From Candidatus Omnitrophota bacterium (lineage in GTDB: Bacteria; Omnitrophota; Gorgyraeia; JABMRN01; RBG-13-46-9), in contig CP070780.1 of NCBI GenBank assembly GCA_020346285.1, forward strand, positions 866,245 to 925,035: 58,791 nucleotides of DNA, in the 5' to 3' direction. The position numbers and the translations under genes are program-made. Position 1 is the first letter of the stretch. Each line of letters begins with the position of its first letter. The notes beneath the pieces were generated by a model. It ran no database searches. It saw only the letters and a list, made by a program, of their open reading frames with translations, and had not been told where the DNA came from. Below are positions 45,396 to 52,399 of the stretch, piece by piece.

Positions 45396-48300
45396 ATGCC
45401 TGACATACCCAGTATAGATTATAAAAAACTGCCACTTTCTTTAATAGACGACCTTACCCAACTGTGCAATCGCCGCTTCATTTACAATAACATGCCCGAC
45501 ATTATTGCCCAAGACAAAACCGCAGCCGGAAAAGCTTCCCTGTTAATGATAGATGTCGATAACTTTAAAAATATAAACGATACTTTCGGGCATCTGGCAG
45601 GGGATAAAGTGCTGGTTGAGTTAGCTAAAAGATTGGATAAATACGTTTCTAAAAAGGGCATTGTAGCCAGATATGCTGGGGACGAATTTGTAATTTTGTT
45701 TCCCGGCCAGGATGAAAAGCAAGCTTATAAACTTGGCGAGGCAATGTTACAAGACATATCAGGATTGGAATGGCCGATAAAAGACAAAAATTTCGAAGGA
45801 TTAGGCCTGAGCATAGGTGTTGCCGCTTATCCGGCAGACAGCGCTTCCCTGATAGATTTGATAAGATGCGCGGATGAGGCCTTATACGCCGCTAAAAACA
45901 CCGGTAAAAATAGAATTTTAGTTTATAAATCTATCGACAAGGAGATAAAAGACCGTATCAGATTAAGGCAGGTGTTTCTGAGGCCGCCTTTCATAGACCG
46001 CGAAAAGGAACTCGAAGGCCTTAAGAAAGATTACAAAACTTCTCAGGCAGGCAAGAGAAAAGCTTTACTGGTAGAGGGGGAATCCGGCATCGGGAAGACC
46101 AGGCTCCTGGAGGAATTTTCCGTCTCAGCCGAAAGACAGGATACGTTTTTGTTATTCCGTAAGTTAGGGCAGAGAGGTGAAGGCGGGCCTCTCGCAGGGT
46201 TGGCAAAATTACTTCACCTGGTGGTAAATTCGTTCGGCCTTAATAAATTCGGAGCCATTCTTTCCGAGCTTAAAGATTCAGAACTCGCAGAGGTTTTATA
46301 TATATATCCGATGTTTAAAAAGCTTGCCAAGGATGTGTCTCCCGCAACAAAACCGGAAGGAAGAGCGGCTGATCTTTTTTCCGGTCTATGCAAGATAATG
46401 CTTAAGGTTACTCGTGAAAAAACCCTCGTTTTAATTGTCGATAACCTCCATTACGCAAATCAGCTTACTTTACAATTTTTCTCGGTACTACTTGGAATCT
46501 CCAAATTGAATAAATTCCTTTTTATAGGAACATACGATAAAAAAGCCATAGAAAAGACGCTAAGGGATTTTTTGGCCAAAGGCCTTTTCACGACTATAAA
46601 GCTCGAGCCCCTGGCAAAAGATGAGGTAACCCAACTGATTGAATCAATTTTTCCGGGTATTAAGCCCGAGCCTAAGCTGGTTGAAAATCTATACAAGGCA
46701 AGTAAAGGGAATCCGCTTTTGCTGGGCGAAATATTAAAAACCCTGGTTGAAAACGGCAGCATGCAATATAAAAATAAACAGTGGCAATCGAAGGCTATCG
46801 GAGCCGGCGATATTCCGGCTTCTTTACGCGATACCGTTGAACCCAGGATTGATAGATTAGATGATGAAACAAAAGAAATGCTTTCCTATGTAGCGGTTAT
46901 GGGCGGAAAGGTCGAGCTGGATATTCTAAAAAAATTCAGCGGCTACAATGAAGGGCGCCTATTTGAGCTATTAGACCGTGCCATAAACGCCGGCGTAATA
47001 AAATTGTCGGATTTAAAAAGCTATGATTCAGTGTCTTTTCAGGCCGGCCCGGCCAGGGAAACACTGGCTAAGATGATTCCTGCCCAGAAAGCTGCGGGTT
47101 TAAATCAAAGACTTGCTGAACTTATCAAAGACCATTATAAAGATGAGCTTCCGGTCCAGCTTGATCGCTTAATTCGACATTTCGAGCTGGGCATGGACAA
47201 AGCTACCGCTTTGAAATATAAAAATATAGCTCGCGAGATAGGCCAGAGCTTTGCTTTATCCAAGAGGGTGAGGAGCCTTTTAGAAAAAATAGAAAGGCAG
47301 GAAGAAATACCGGTAAGTATTGAAGAGCTGCTGGAAAGGCCGCTTAGCGAGGCAAGCGCTAAAATTATCAAGGATGTGGTATCTGCCGTTAGAGCGGCTA
47401 TCGTGGGGGCGTTGCTTTATCCCGCCGGCAATAAAATGCGTTCGGATTTACAGGATAAAGCTTATGAAATGATTCTCGACGTCCTTCGCAAGGACCCTAC
47501 CCTAACATTCACCGACGCAGAAGATAAATTATTAATAAATGGCAGCGAGCCGAAACAATGGGATACAAAAAGCGCCATTGGTTTTGCCTTTATCAGCCTG
47601 ATGAGAGATTATAATATTAGCAGTATAACCTTTAAGCATGGATTAGGAAAACAAGAATTTACATATTTTTTACATTGTATTGCGACCCCCGAAGAAGAAG
47701 TCAAAAACCAGGGAGGGCTTGTAGCGCTGTTTGAAAAAGGAAGTATCGCGCATATAAAAGTTGACGAAGTAAAATATGAAAAGCTCTCAAAGCTAACGGA
47801 AAGGGCCATTGGAATCAAAGGAATTAAGCAGCAAGAAACATTTTCGACAAGCCAGTTATCGAAGGGTAATTTGCTGGACATGCCTGTCGAACAGTATTTC
47901 GATCCAAAAATATTGGGTAAACTCGATCTTATAATCGAAGCATTTCTCTTGAATAAAAAAGATGCCAAGGTTGAAAAAATAACTAATAAATTATCGGAAA
48001 ATCTGGATACCACAGACGCCGCGGATAAAACAACGATTGCCGAAGGAGCTGTTCAACTTAGCAAATCCCTTCTTAAATATGAGAAGTTCCATCTTTTAGA
48101 AACATTGACAGGTTCGTTAATCAATAGATCTCGTAGAGCCAAGCAACCTAAAGAATTTGCAGAGCTTTCTGCAGGGCTTCAAATGATAGCCAATCGTCTC
48201 ATAGGTAAAGAAAACTTCGGCCAGGCGAGAACAATTATCAAGCACTTTAAAGAACAGATTGAGCCCGATTCGGCTTACACCGAACAGCAGAAAAAAGTCG

Positions 48301-48920
48301 TAGAGGAAGAATTCCAGAAGATCGCGCATCCCAAGGTAACCGAGGCTTTAGTAAATGCTCTTAAGCAAAAACTGGATTCCAGCAGTTACAGAAATATCAC
48401 AGAAATCCTGGCAGAACTCGGCGGATACGCCTTGAATTCCCTGCTTAAACTTTTAACCGAAGAAGAAGCCCCTAAAAAAGACGCGTTTGATCTTTATGTT
48501 ATGCGGCACTCGGTCGCCACGATACTGAAAAAAATAGGCCAGCCGGCAAAAGATGCTTTGAAAGAAATGCTGTCTGATAATCGCCCTTATGTTGTAAAAA
48601 ATGTCATAGAAGTGCTCGGCTACATCGGTGGCGAAGATGTGGTGAAAATATTAGCGCCTTGTTTCCAGGGCACTTCCACCCAAGTACGAATGCAATGCGT
48701 TCTCTCGCTGAAGAAAATCCACACGAAAGAAGCTCTAAAAAGCCTGCTTGAATTGCTGAAAGACAGCGATGGGAGTATAAGACAAGCAGCGAGCCTGGCA
48801 ATAGCGGAAATAGCCGACCCATCTTTTGAAAAGGAACTGGCGCCTCTTTTGGCAAACAGGTCAACAAAAAGCATAGCGGAAAAAACAATTCAGAAAATAC
48901 GGGCAAAAAAGAAAAAATAA
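45396..48920 (+). CDS. GGDEF-STAND ATPase-HEAT repeat signalling protein
   Basis: 1174 residues. A GGDEF domain (about 10-175) has the active-type signature RYAGDEF (A94-F98) and DVDNFKNINDTFGH upstream; no RxxD inhibitory site is seen before it. A P-loop ATPase of the AAA_16/STAND type follows, with Walker A GESGIGKT near 227-234 and Walker B VLIVDNLHYAN near 345. Then come winged-helix-like and long helical regions (about 480-1000) of no recognised family. At the end are four or five HEAT-type repeats (about 1030-1170, for example DNRPYVVKNVIEVLGYIGGEDVV). It presumably makes c-di-GMP under control of the ATPase and HEAT parts. A PilZ gene follows after 4 bases. The architecture is not one I recognise. 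Confidence 0.85.
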   Translation: MPDIPSIDYKKLPLSLIDDLTQLCNRRFIYNNMPDIIAQDKTAAGKASLLMIDVDNFKNINDTFGHLAGDKVLVELAKRLDKYVSKKGIVARYAGDEFVILFPGQDEKQAYKLGEAMLQDISGLEWPIKDKNFEGLGLSIGVAAYPADSASLIDLIRCADEALYAAKNTGKNRILVYKSIDKEIKDRIRLRQVFLRPPFIDREKELEGLKKDYKTSQAGKRKALLVEGESGIGKTRLLEEFSVSAERQDTFLLFRKLGQRGEGGPLAGLAKLLHLVVNSFGLNKFGAILSELKDSELAEVLYIYPMFKKLAKDVSPATKPEGRAADLFSGLCKIMLKVTREKTLVLIVDNLHYANQLTLQFFSVLLGISKLNKFLFIGTYDKKAIEKTLRDFLAKGLFTTIKLEPLAKDEVTQLIESIFPGIKPEPKLVENLYKASKGNPLLLGEILKTLVENGSMQYKNKQWQSKAIGAGDIPASLRDTVEPRIDRLDDETKEMLSYVAVMGGKVELDILKKFSGYNEGRLFELLDRAINAGVIKLSDLKSYDSVSFQAGPARETLAKMIPAQKAAGLNQRLAELIKDHYKDELPVQLDRLIRHFELGMDKATALKYKNIAREIGQSFALSKRVRSLLEKIERQEEIPVSIEELLERPLSEASAKIIKDVVSAVRAAIVGALLYPAGNKMRSDLQDKAYEMILDVLRKDPTLTFTDAEDKLLINGSEPKQWDTKSAIGFAFISLMRDYNISSITFKHGLGKQEFTYFLHCIATPEEEVKNQGGLVALFEKGSIAHIKVDEVKYEKLSKLTERAIGIKGIKQQETFSTSQLSKGNLLDMPVEQYFDPKILGKLDLIIEAFLLNKKDAKVEKITNKLSENLDTTDAADKTTIAEGAVQLSKSLLKYEKFHLLETLTGSLINRSRRAKQPKEFAELSAGLQMIANRLIGKENFGQARTIIKHFKEQIEPDSAYTEQQKKVVEEEFQKIAHPKVTEALVNALKQKLDSSSYRNITEILAELGGYALNSLLKLLTEEEAPKKDAFDLYVMRHSVATILKKIGQPAKDALKEMLSDNRPYVVKNVIEVLGYIGGEDVVKILAPCFQGTSTQVRMQCVLSLKKIHTKEALKSLLELLKDSDGSIRQAASLAIAEIADPSFEKELAPLLANRSTKSIAEKTIQKIRAKKKK

Positions 48921-48924
48921 TCAG

Positions 48925-49320
48925 ATGAGAAAAATTGAATATATAGGCCCGGAAAGAAGAAAATACTTAAGGTTCCCCCGCCGCTGTGTTGTAAAATATG
49001 CAAAATTGTCAAAGAGTAACTTAAGGCCTCTTGTCAACCTGACAATAAAATCCTATACGAAGGAAATAAGCGGCGCAGGAATCAAATTTATTGCGCGCAA
49101 AAAGATGTCGATACATACAATTATAGAATTTCAGTTTAACATTCCTGAGATTAATAGGCCCATAAATGGTCTCGGCGAAGTGGTTAGAGTTAAAGTAAGA
49201 CCGGGTGGAAGGTCTTATAATGTGGCCATGAAGTTTATCTGGATGCAGAAAAAGAATATCGACTTAATCGATGGTTACATACGGAAAAAAAGGATACAAC
49301 AAGTTATGAAAAAACTCTGA
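48925..49320 (+). CDS. PilZ-domain protein
   Basis: 131 residues with a c-di-GMP-binding arginine motif (RRKYLR near residue 11-16) and EISGAGIKF near residue 46-54. Glu replaces the usual Asp/Asn at the start of the second motif. Single-domain receptor, co-transcribed with the GGDEF protein (4-base gap), so it is the obvious first partner. A 30-bp palindrome follows 3 bases after the stop. Confidence 0.85.
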   Translation: MRKIEYIGPERRKYLRFPRRCVVKYAKLSKSNLRPLVNLTIKSYTKEISGAGIKFIARKKMSIHTIIEFQFNIPEINRPINGLGEVVRVKVRPGGRSYNVAMKFIWMQKKNIDLIDGYIRKKRIQQVMKKL

Positions 49321-49558: not shown

Positions 49559-52399
49559 ATGAAAAAAATAATATCTCTGGTTGTTATTTTTTGTTTTTTT
49601 ATAAGTAATGTTAGTTTCGCAATTAACCTCCCATTAGATAATACCTCTAATAATAACGGAACAAATCTCGCAGTCCCTTCATTACTCAAGAATATTTTAG
49701 ATAAAACCGGAGCAATTAATGAGGCGGAAAATATTAAACTCTGGCTTGCGGCGTGCTTACGGAGTATAGCGGCCGAAGGATTCGATTTTAAAACAGCGAC
49801 ACCCGAAGAAATCCGCGATCGTCTCAAAGAATTGGGCGAGCCGAGAAATGCGGAGATATTCCATCCAAAAGAGACTCAATTTTTTGTTCATGAGGCCACA
49901 ATAGAGGGTGACCGCGTGCGAGTAACAGCCCGAGTAAAAAGGGATAACTCTTTAAGGACTTATAATATCACTTTTTCCGGCCCGGAAACTATATACGTAA
50001 ACCTAAAGAGAGATTCAAAAGACAGCATTCCATCCAAGGGTATTTTTGAAGATATGGAATCTCTTGTGGAATTCTTAAGAGGGATAGTGGAATTTGATGT
50101 CAAAGGAACGGTAAAACTTATTGAAGGCGAAGAAGATGCCTTCATAGAAAGATTACCCGTTTTGGTTTACAACATCTCGGTTAATCCGGAAGATTCTATC
50201 AGAGACGCGATAGAATGGATGATTTTGGAATTAGGCCCCCAGCTTCCTGTAAATAGTGCTATTCCTGCTTCAACGCAAAAACTCTATAGAACAATAGGAA
50301 GGGAGTACTACAAGAAATCGGCCATTCTGAAAATAAACCAAAGGGCGTTGATACCATATCTCTATCGAATAATGCTTAAGGTGATGAGAGAGCATAATGT
50401 GGCAATGATAAGCCAGATTGCCATATCCGAAGCCATATATATTGTTGGCGGCGATGCTAAGAAATCCCCGGCTATTAATATAGCTCAGGCTATATTGGCG
50501 GGAAGAACAAGTCGCGAAGGGGCTACACCTGTTTTCAATTCAAGGGATCATCTGCAGGTAGATAAAAAACTTTACGACAAAAATTCTGCAATGGCTTTAA
50601 GAAATAGGGCAGATACAATCCGGGAGGATATTCTCGAAGACAAAATATATAGCGTAGATTTGGATACGTCTACCATAGCCCGGACCCCTGATGAGATGCC
50701 CGGTTCCGTTGCAGAACAGCAAAGGCCCAATTTTGAGACAGCCGTTAAGTACACCATTTTTGTCAGGTTGTTGGAGAAAATATACGGTTTGCCGGGTATT
50801 GCCCTTAATGGCGAAGTAGGCGAAGTAGGAACAGAAGAGGTAACGCCTGAAGAACTAAGAGCGTATTTAACAGGTTACAAGCTTACGCTAGGCAAATTTA
50901 TGAACTTCAGTCCAAAACAAAAATTAGAATGGATTGAAAACAATAATTACATCTTCTGGTTTAGCGAAGAAGAAATGGCTAAAATAAAAGAAATCGTACA
51001 AGATAAAGCAATGCATTTTGATGGCCTTGAGGCAATGAGCTGCCAGGTTGGCACGGCACACGGAGGAGTAAAGGTACCCGGTAGGCCGTGGGAGCGAACC
51101 AGTGAAAGGGTAGTAAACATGGAACGGCTCGAGGAACTGGCCGATATATGCCGGAGTTTTGGATTGGCCGGACTTATACTGCACGGCGCGTCCAGTATTT
51201 CCGAAGATGAACTTAAAGAAGCTGTAGAAAGAGGAGCAATCGCGGTTCACCTTGCTACTTATATTCATGATAGAATCTTTAGCCATCCGGAATTCCCGAC
51301 AAAGCTGATATCAAAGCTGTTTAAACTTATAAAAGAAAGGAATAAAAAACTCTATGACACCCCGATAGATAAACATACCCAGCATATTACAATAGGTGAT
51401 ATAATACAGGAAATACAAGGAACCATTGAAATTGAAAAACCGCTTAGCGAGGAACAGCGGCAGCAAGTAGCCTGGATTGTCCACCAGGCCAGAGGGAAGG
51501 GCGTATCAAAAGAACAACATGATAAAGGAGAAGGCCTATGGTCATTTATCGACCTTGAGCAAGATATGCTGGATTTACCGAAGGAGACGCTTGCCGAGCT
51601 TAACAAGGTAGTTGAGGAGCAGATTCTGCGCTATGTCGAGCTATTGAACGCCAAAGGCACAGGCGATATAATAAAAGATATGGAATTTCCGACACCGCCT
51701 CCTGCGCCCATGCCGGAGCCGTTAAAGGACCACATAGCCGATCCCCCCGACGCCGAGCCTTCATCGGAAATAAATAAGATGAAAACCACTGCAACTCGAG
51801 TCGGCTTGGAGATTCCCACCCATTTAAATACGAGATATACCCTCCTACTCGCTACGGAATTTTTTGCGGATAGCAAAGAATTTAAAAAACATGAAACCGA
51901 ATTTAGAGACAGATTCAATCTCGGAACGGTGGGTGGAAGAACAGCCGAACAATTTATTGATAATGTACTGGCAAAAGCTAGAGGAATCGAACATAGAACA
52001 GTGGTCCTTCTTCCTGACAGAATATCCCGTAGGTGGCTCGAGAGACTTACAGCCGTAGGGATAAGGTTTATCAGAACAGATGTTGAAGATCTCGTAGAGG
52101 CAAGAGTTAACAAAGATGTAAATAGAACAACGTTTCAATTAAATACCTACGCTACTATGTTGCTTATACGCCATATAGATAGAAGCATAGGCAGAGAATC
52201 CCCATTATATCGTATTTTAAGTTTCTATATAAAATCACACTTTAAATTAGACAGTAATGTTGAAATTGAAGATTACATCCAAGCTATTATTACCGGTAAT
52301 ATAGCCATATTAATTAGAGGATATCTATCTTACAGGCCTGCCAAACCGTATCAGGCACCGGACTACGAAAAAATTGCTGCAGCATTAATCTCAGCGTAA
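49559..52399 (+). CDS. Exported protein with class II aldolase-like domain
   Basis: 946 residues with a clear Sec signal peptide (MKKIISLVVIFCFFISNVSFA|INL) and a strong GGAGGGG ribosome binding site. Residues about 355-580 resemble class II fructose-bisphosphate/tagatose aldolase: GEVGEVGTEEV (Glu422), CQVGTAHGGVK (His501) and GLILHGASSISEDELKEA (His542), which match three metal or active-site positions. The LDH motif expected in the barrel start reads SVDLDTST (365-372), so that zinc His is replaced. The N-terminal 350 residues and C-terminal 350 residues are not recognised; a Pro-rich linker (about 710-740) separates the last domain. Such an enzyme domain outside the cytoplasm is unexpected; catalysis is doubtful. 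Confidence 0.75.
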   Translation: MKKIISLVVIFCFFISNVSFAINLPLDNTSNNNGTNLAVPSLLKNILDKTGAINEAENIKLWLAACLRSIAAEGFDFKTATPEEIRDRLKELGEPRNAEIFHPKETQFFVHEATIEGDRVRVTARVKRDNSLRTYNITFSGPETIYVNLKRDSKDSIPSKGIFEDMESLVEFLRGIVEFDVKGTVKLIEGEEDAFIERLPVLVYNISVNPEDSIRDAIEWMILELGPQLPVNSAIPASTQKLYRTIGREYYKKSAILKINQRALIPYLYRIMLKVMREHNVAMISQIAISEAIYIVGGDAKKSPAINIAQAILAGRTSREGATPVFNSRDHLQVDKKLYDKNSAMALRNRADTIREDILEDKIYSVDLDTSTIARTPDEMPGSVAEQQRPNFETAVKYTIFVRLLEKIYGLPGIALNGEVGEVGTEEVTPEELRAYLTGYKLTLGKFMNFSPKQKLEWIENNNYIFWFSEEEMAKIKEIVQDKAMHFDGLEAMSCQVGTAHGGVKVPGRPWERTSERVVNMERLEELADICRSFGLAGLILHGASSISEDELKEAVERGAIAVHLATYIHDRIFSHPEFPTKLISKLFKLIKERNKKLYDTPIDKHTQHITIGDIIQEIQGTIEIEKPLSEEQRQQVAWIVHQARGKGVSKEQHDKGEGLWSFIDLEQDMLDLPKETLAELNKVVEEQILRYVELLNAKGTGDIIKDMEFPTPPPAPMPEPLKDHIADPPDAEPSSEINKMKTTATRVGLEIPTHLNTRYTLLLATEFFADSKEFKKHETEFRDRFNLGTVGGRTAEQFIDNVLAKARGIEHRTVVLLPDRISRRWLERLTAVGIRFIRTDVEDLVEARVNKDVNRTTFQLNTYATMLLIRHIDRSIGRESPLYRILSFYIKSHFKLDSNVEIEDYIQAIITGNIAILIRGYLSYRPAKPYQAPDYEKIAAALISA

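Follow-up and report, generated by a model that had tools for sequence, protein, structure and literature searches.

A class II aldolase-like domain in a predicted exported protein of Candidatus Omnitrophota, and a set of exported-type proteins carrying central carbon enzymes

Glycolysis is textbook cytoplasmic metabolism, and a gene of a Candidatus Omnitrophota bacterium raises the question of what an aldolase barrel would be doing behind a signal peptide. The gene lies in a stretch of 58,791 nucleotides (the window, meaning the whole stretch analysed) from a 1.43 Mb genome contained in one contig, and it consists of an uninterrupted ORF of 946 aa (49559-52399, + strand), whose product is here called P0001. 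The following parts were distinguished:

49559..49621, + strand: predicted Sec signal peptide, residues 1-21 (MKKIISLVVIFCFFISNVSFA), with cleavage after S-F-A
49622..50098, + strand: N-cap module, residues 22-180, recognised by profile search and alignment
50099..51418, + strand: class II aldolase-like domain, residues about 181-620, recognised by Pfam PF01116 and alignments
51419..51763, + strand: linker, residues 621-735, Pro-rich near its end (FPTPPPAPMPEP)
51764..52396, + strand: C-cap module, residues 736-946, with the terminus DYEKIAAALISA

The N-terminus (MKKIISLVVIFCFFISNVSFA followed by INLP) has the composition of a Sec-type signal peptide, with n-, h- and c-regions and small residues at positions -3 and -1, as predicted for a Sec/SPase I substrate; signal peptides were scored with our own n/h/c-region rule, not with SignalP. 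The same layout recurred in the alignment on other N-cap proteins, and the cytoplasmic aldolases had no N-terminus of this kind.

An orthologue was found in a genome from another family of the same class (G091), where it is split by a contig break. The two proteins are about 65% identical (66% over residues 4-349 and 63% over residues 349-946), the linkers share 72% identity, and the predicted signal peptide of the orthologue, MKKIVSLVVAFCFLISNVSSA, is 77% identical to that of P0001. A preliminary description of the locus as encoding a 946-residue protein with a signal peptide was therefore borne out, the ORF being intact and the predicted Sec layout being kept in the orthologue. The Nei-Gojobori dN/dS ratio between both genes was 0.25 overall (0.23 for the aldolase domain, 0.27 for the N-cap and 0.36 for the C-cap) at a dS of about 0.9 and, by this measure, P0001 is under purifying selection along its whole length. 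A chance ORF or a fusion created by assembly error is ruled out by the orthologue, the dN/dS and the repeated occurrence of the architecture, in a genome that is a single contig (G000).

As regards the gene neighbourhood, this genome has two loci (48925-49320 in the window and L010:6323-6796) where a PilZ-like gene is found close to a gene for a capped exported protein, PilZ being confirmed by Pfam at the window locus only. In the window, the PilZ-like gene is preceded by a gene for a GGDEF-AAA-HEAT protein (45396-48920).

The barrel and its active site

PF01116 was the sole Pfam family above cut-off in P0001, matching residues 477-576 (E=2.6e-8; 34.1 bits, the gathering score being 25.5), and the best PDB profile match was 1gvf (AgaY/GatY). 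Scores stayed far below the NCBIfam equivalog cut-offs (27.2 vs 343.05 bits for TIGR01859 and 29.3 vs 215.6 for TIGR00167). GatZ/KbaZ (PF08013) gave no match in P0001 at the Pfam gathering score and was weak or borderline in relatives.

Each domain of P0001 was aligned separately, and the barrel was compared with a 442-aa paralogue from the same genome and 13 other sequences. Residues N260, S290, E291, D330, H331, E419, E422, H501, H542 and H564 are conserved, and six of them (D330, E419, E422, H501, H542 and H564) are invariant across all homologues covering those positions. Glu422, His501 and His542 had been named as aldolase motif residues from the letters of the sequence, and all three were found at those positions and align in every homologue that covers them. 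The same description had held that the metal His was missing from the motif read as LDH. This did not stand, since the sequence R-D330-H331-L-Q lies opposite Q-G-D-H-F-Q of the cytoplasmic paralogue, the metal Asp-His pair, and H331 aligns with the metal His. Altogether, the 13 chosen active-site positions were identical in P0001 and the paralogue (13/13) at an overall identity of 28%; the associated P of about 7e-8 derives from a naive per-site null in which the sites vary as much as the average column, and indicates direction only. The canonical phosphate-site Asn, which belongs to a K/V-N-x-A/D-T motif (KVNVAT in AgaY), is replaced by His in P0001 and in the whole 440-aa subfamily to which the paralogue belongs (VHLAT), which makes the substrate choice of P0001 uncertain. 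Judging from these alignments, the barrel of P0001 belongs among the class II aldolases, as a divergent member.

The paralogue (L012:4084-5412) lacks a signal peptide and adjoins a 6-phosphofructokinase gene (PfkA). Its 440-aa subfamily occurs in Omnitrophota and in many other phyla, with members mostly 46-87% identical to the paralogue. Among 29 genomes, 8 contained a canonical class II aldolase (>300 bits) and none of these 8 had a 440-aa cytoplasmic copy, while the genomes with a 440-aa copy had no canonical cytoplasmic aldolase. Given this mutual exclusion between cytoplasmic copies, the 440-aa enzyme is probably the glycolytic aldolase of the genomes carrying it, and the pattern suggests displacement of one type by the other. 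A canonical-type aldolase domain was also found in G194, within a large protein of 3194 aa.

In the tree, P0001 and its orthologue form a separate long branch, and an origin of P0001 as a recent duplicate of this genome's cytoplasmic aldolase received no support. The exported aldolase copies require about three state changes on this tree; capture of an aldolase into exported proteins may thus have happened more than once, a single origin also being conceivable. A related-locus search of genome contigs with P0001 as query returned no relative, and the same kind of search with the C-cap alignment yielded no conserved stretch. Related named contigs belong to Candidatus Omnitrophota. A genome of the same genus (G001) contains a 932-aa ORF with an open 5' end and the terminus FKRAA (L197:2064-4859, - strand), which carries a very divergent aldolase-like domain (RDHG, GTIHG, HGTSG) and is not a P0001 orthologue.

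Terminal modules shared with other enzyme-bearing proteins

No Pfam family exceeded its cut-off over residues 22-180 or 736-946. Nevertheless, the N-cap aligned with the N-termini of other exported-type proteins, and profile searches with both caps yielded matches in the own genome and in relatives. P0001 matches both profiles, being itself among the sequences from which they were built. The C-cap is 26-53% identical to the C-termini of other enzyme-bearing proteins of up to 3221 aa. In relatives, proteins with the same caps as P0001 contain a complete pyruvate phosphate dikinase (PPDK; L047), a ROK kinase with a 4-alpha-glucanotransferase (GH77; L049), transketolase, transaldolase and PFK (L086; 3221 aa), or alanine dehydrogenase (AlaDH), hexokinase and a canonical FBA (L089; 3194 aa). 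In G002, a C-cap comes after transketolase and transaldolase sequence (L046), and in G010 one comes after a dehydrogenase domain (L042). The earlier view of the flanks as unrecognised and perhaps new was thus right in that they have no Pfam family, but they are not one-off sequences: on these matches, they are N- and C-terminal modules common to a family of exported enzyme proteins.

Large ORFs of about 900-3200 aa with other caps, in most of which a signal peptide is recognisable, contain GAPDH, PGK, TIM, enolase, PGI and PPDK domains. One of them combines two GAPDH copies with PGK, enolase and aldolase (L082); others harbour GAPDH, PGK and TIM (L077 and L079), TIM, aldolase and enolase (L090), PGK with phosphoglucomutase (L078), or PGI (in G157). 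Many other enzyme types also show the export pattern. This set was gathered by targeted search in draft genomes, some with masked stretches, and its frequencies are not those of a survey.

Several further loci deserve mention on their own account. L074 (G012:C53) encodes three signal-peptide proteins side by side, all with a different cap: one has an aldolase, one TIM plus enolase, and one PGK plus PPDK; by domain content this is a lower-glycolysis cluster. Large proteins encoded at L064:1909-7605 (- strand), L064:2-1771, L071 and L065, some with signal peptides, contain proline dehydrogenase plus aldehyde dehydrogenase, ArgZ-like, radical SAM and glycogen synthase domains. In G098, a hexokinase domain (C5:54585-55160, L188; E=4e-61) sits inside a 32,526-aa open frame, which connects the giant ORFs of Omnitrophota with the exported enzyme pattern.

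In the genome of P0001 itself, one signal-peptide protein (L182:3109-7209, - strand; C1:992044-993651) contains tandem TIM domains, the second of which has the active-site N, K, H and E and is followed by a partial further start (IAANWK). A 1149-aa ORF of this genome (L181:3077-6523) includes a second enolase; its N-terminus, where a signal peptide would lie, is masked by N. Normal TIM and enolase copies are present in the same genome. More widely, the genomes with exported-type enzymes also contain cytoplasmic copies of normal size. Such copies of PGK, mostly in ORFs of about 400 aa, occurred in 140 of 147 genomes, and those of TIM and enolase in 95 and 88 of 99 genomes, respectively.

Active sites are largely preserved in the exported-type copies: 8-10 of 10 chosen positions in seven PGKs from large ORFs (28-43% identity), 10-11 of 11 in four enolases, 7/7, 7/7 and 5/7 in three TIMs, and 12-13 of 13 in four aldolases. 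Cysteine makes up 0.44% of the exported-type large proteins and 1.11% of cytosolic-type ORFs (p=4.7e-7), and the former have few or no later membrane segments. The catalytic Cys of GAPDH was present in all 5 proteins examined: two of the only 4 Cys of L082 (2991 aa) are the catalytic ones of its two GAPDH copies, and so is one of the 3 Cys of L187 (1839 aa). That Cys has been purged elsewhere and kept at the GAPDH catalytic position argues for a location outside the cytoplasm and also for catalysis.

These data bear on two alternative readings of P0001. The preliminary description had proposed that the barrel was reused for binding sugar phosphates or as a structural domain. Some exported copies do show residue drift (R66 to S in the PGK of L074, R40 to K in that of L079, and loss of one Glu in the L082 aldolase), which speaks for such reuse. 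However, P0001 has the full, conserved set of metal and catalytic residues, 13/13, and GAPDH keeps its catalytic Cys in Cys-purged proteins; moreover, an intact active site, an orthologue that retains the signal peptide and a dN/dS of about 0.25 make a dead, structural barrel improbable, and we consider non-catalytic reuse distinctly unlikely. In the second reading, the N-terminal helix would be a non-working signal and P0001 an additional aldolase in the cytoplasm, or anchored facing it. Its substrates are indeed cytoplasmic, and P0001 shows no Cys depletion relative to the paralogue (4/946 vs 2/437), a comparison that does not discriminate for P0001 alone. This second reading is nevertheless very improbable in view of the n/h/c layout and small -3/-1 residues conserved across N-cap proteins, the lack of such an N-terminus in cytoplasmic aldolases, and the Cys depletion and scarcity of later membrane segments in the group.

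A possible extracytoplasmic enzyme set

The explanation that we favour, with a probability just above one half, is that P0001 is a catalytically competent, Sec-exported aldolase belonging to a second, extracytoplasmic set of central carbon enzymes. P0001 would be exported through Sec, its signal peptide most likely being cleaved, and would act as a metal-dependent class II (ketose-bisphosphate) aldolase with its barrel held between the N- and C-terminal modules. The caps would probably hold or place it at the cell envelope or surface, where the barrel would reversibly split ketose bisphosphates released, for example, from prey or host cells. In its own genome, the second set would also comprise TIM and probably enolase, coexisting with the normal cytoplasmic set. 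The sequences directly show the intact active site, the purifying selection, the shared caps and the recurring pattern, whereas Sec export, enzymatic activity, cap function and substrate source are inferred.

Sugar phosphates, NAD and ATP are normally not available outside the cytoplasm, and this counts against the favoured explanation. An ATP/ADP translocase was absent from the P0001 genome and present in 6 of the 99 genomes of the class, leaving a nucleotide translocase unsupported as a co-occurring supplier of ATP. The supply of ATP and NAD would be settled if the enzymes acted in an intracellular membrane-bounded compartment, topologically equivalent to the periplasm, reached through Sec and glycosome-like. 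We know of no such compartment in these Omnitrophota. In PVC bacteria, signal peptides are over-represented among endomembrane-linked proteins (PMC4452313). The exported-type tails, several of them unrelated, end in Ala in 8 of 22 tail clusters as against 16 of 176 (p=0.0015); terminal Ala is possibly a sorting or processing mark, but as a C-terminal signal it is weak, and we regard the compartment as improbable.

Export might also serve another purpose, with P0001, active or at least folded, working as a factor in predation or host interaction and not in carbon metabolism. Such a role has been proposed for secreted GAPDH and PGK of Myxococcus xanthus, which inhibit E. coli prey in its growth (PMC10141889). 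Omnitrophota, with their giant surface ORFs, have been predicted to be predators or parasites (PMC10066038), and the breadth of enzyme types with the same export pattern would fit such a role. On its own, though, this role does not need every catalytic residue to be retained across several enzyme families, and in our analysis it is an unlikely account of the locus. As to physiological role, the data are compatible with metabolism, in the periplasm or at the surface, of sugar phosphates from lysed cells, as they are with action on prey and with an inner compartment.

Extending the favoured explanation of an exported, active aldolase, it is tentatively conceivable, though doubtful, that in many Omnitrophota a second glycolysis, complete or nearly so, operates outside the cytoplasm by means of dedicated multi-enzyme proteins that have signal peptides and intact active sites, with sugar phosphates and cofactors coming from prey or host or held in a sealed compartment.

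To our knowledge, an exported set of sugar-metabolism enzymes in the uncultured phylum Omnitrophota, often with several fused in one large protein, is undescribed, and the open-access literature yielded no account of glycolytic proteins with signal peptides in this phylum. It is this set, and not the single barrel, for which we have found no precedent. Exported glycolytic, pentose-phosphate and glycogen enzymes beside a cytoplasmic set would put central carbon chemistry outside the cytoplasm in a widespread phylum, and would bear on how ultrasmall, probably predatory bacteria feed. They would also supply content for part of the unexplained large ORFs of Omnitrophota.

Comparison with known systems

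P0001 shares the D-H, E, GT-HG and HGAS motifs with the class II ketose-bisphosphate aldolases AgaY/GatY (1gvf) and FbaA, and differs from them in its predicted export, its caps, a longer barrel that contains inserts, and VHLAT where they have VNVAT. Its nearest barrel relatives beyond the orthologue are the 440-aa aldolase-like enzymes of Omnitrophota and many other phyla, which have the same motif set and domain length but are cytoplasmic and lack caps, the own-genome copy being only 28% identical.

The giant ORFs of the Omnitrophota member Velamenicoccus archaeovorus have few annotated domains, with adhesins or polysaccharide-active parts (PMC10066038). Like the P0001 group, they come from Omnitrophota and are large proteins of the surface or exported kind; unlike it, they contain, as reported, no intact glycolytic enzymes. 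Secreted moonlighting enzymes, such as GAPDH and PGK of M. xanthus (PMC10141889), resemble the P0001 group in being glycolytic enzymes found outside the cytoplasm. The P0001 group is set apart from them by its multi-enzyme fusions. The secreted M. xanthus enzymes are presumably housekeeping enzymes without signal peptides, whereas those of the P0001 group are dedicated second copies that carry them.
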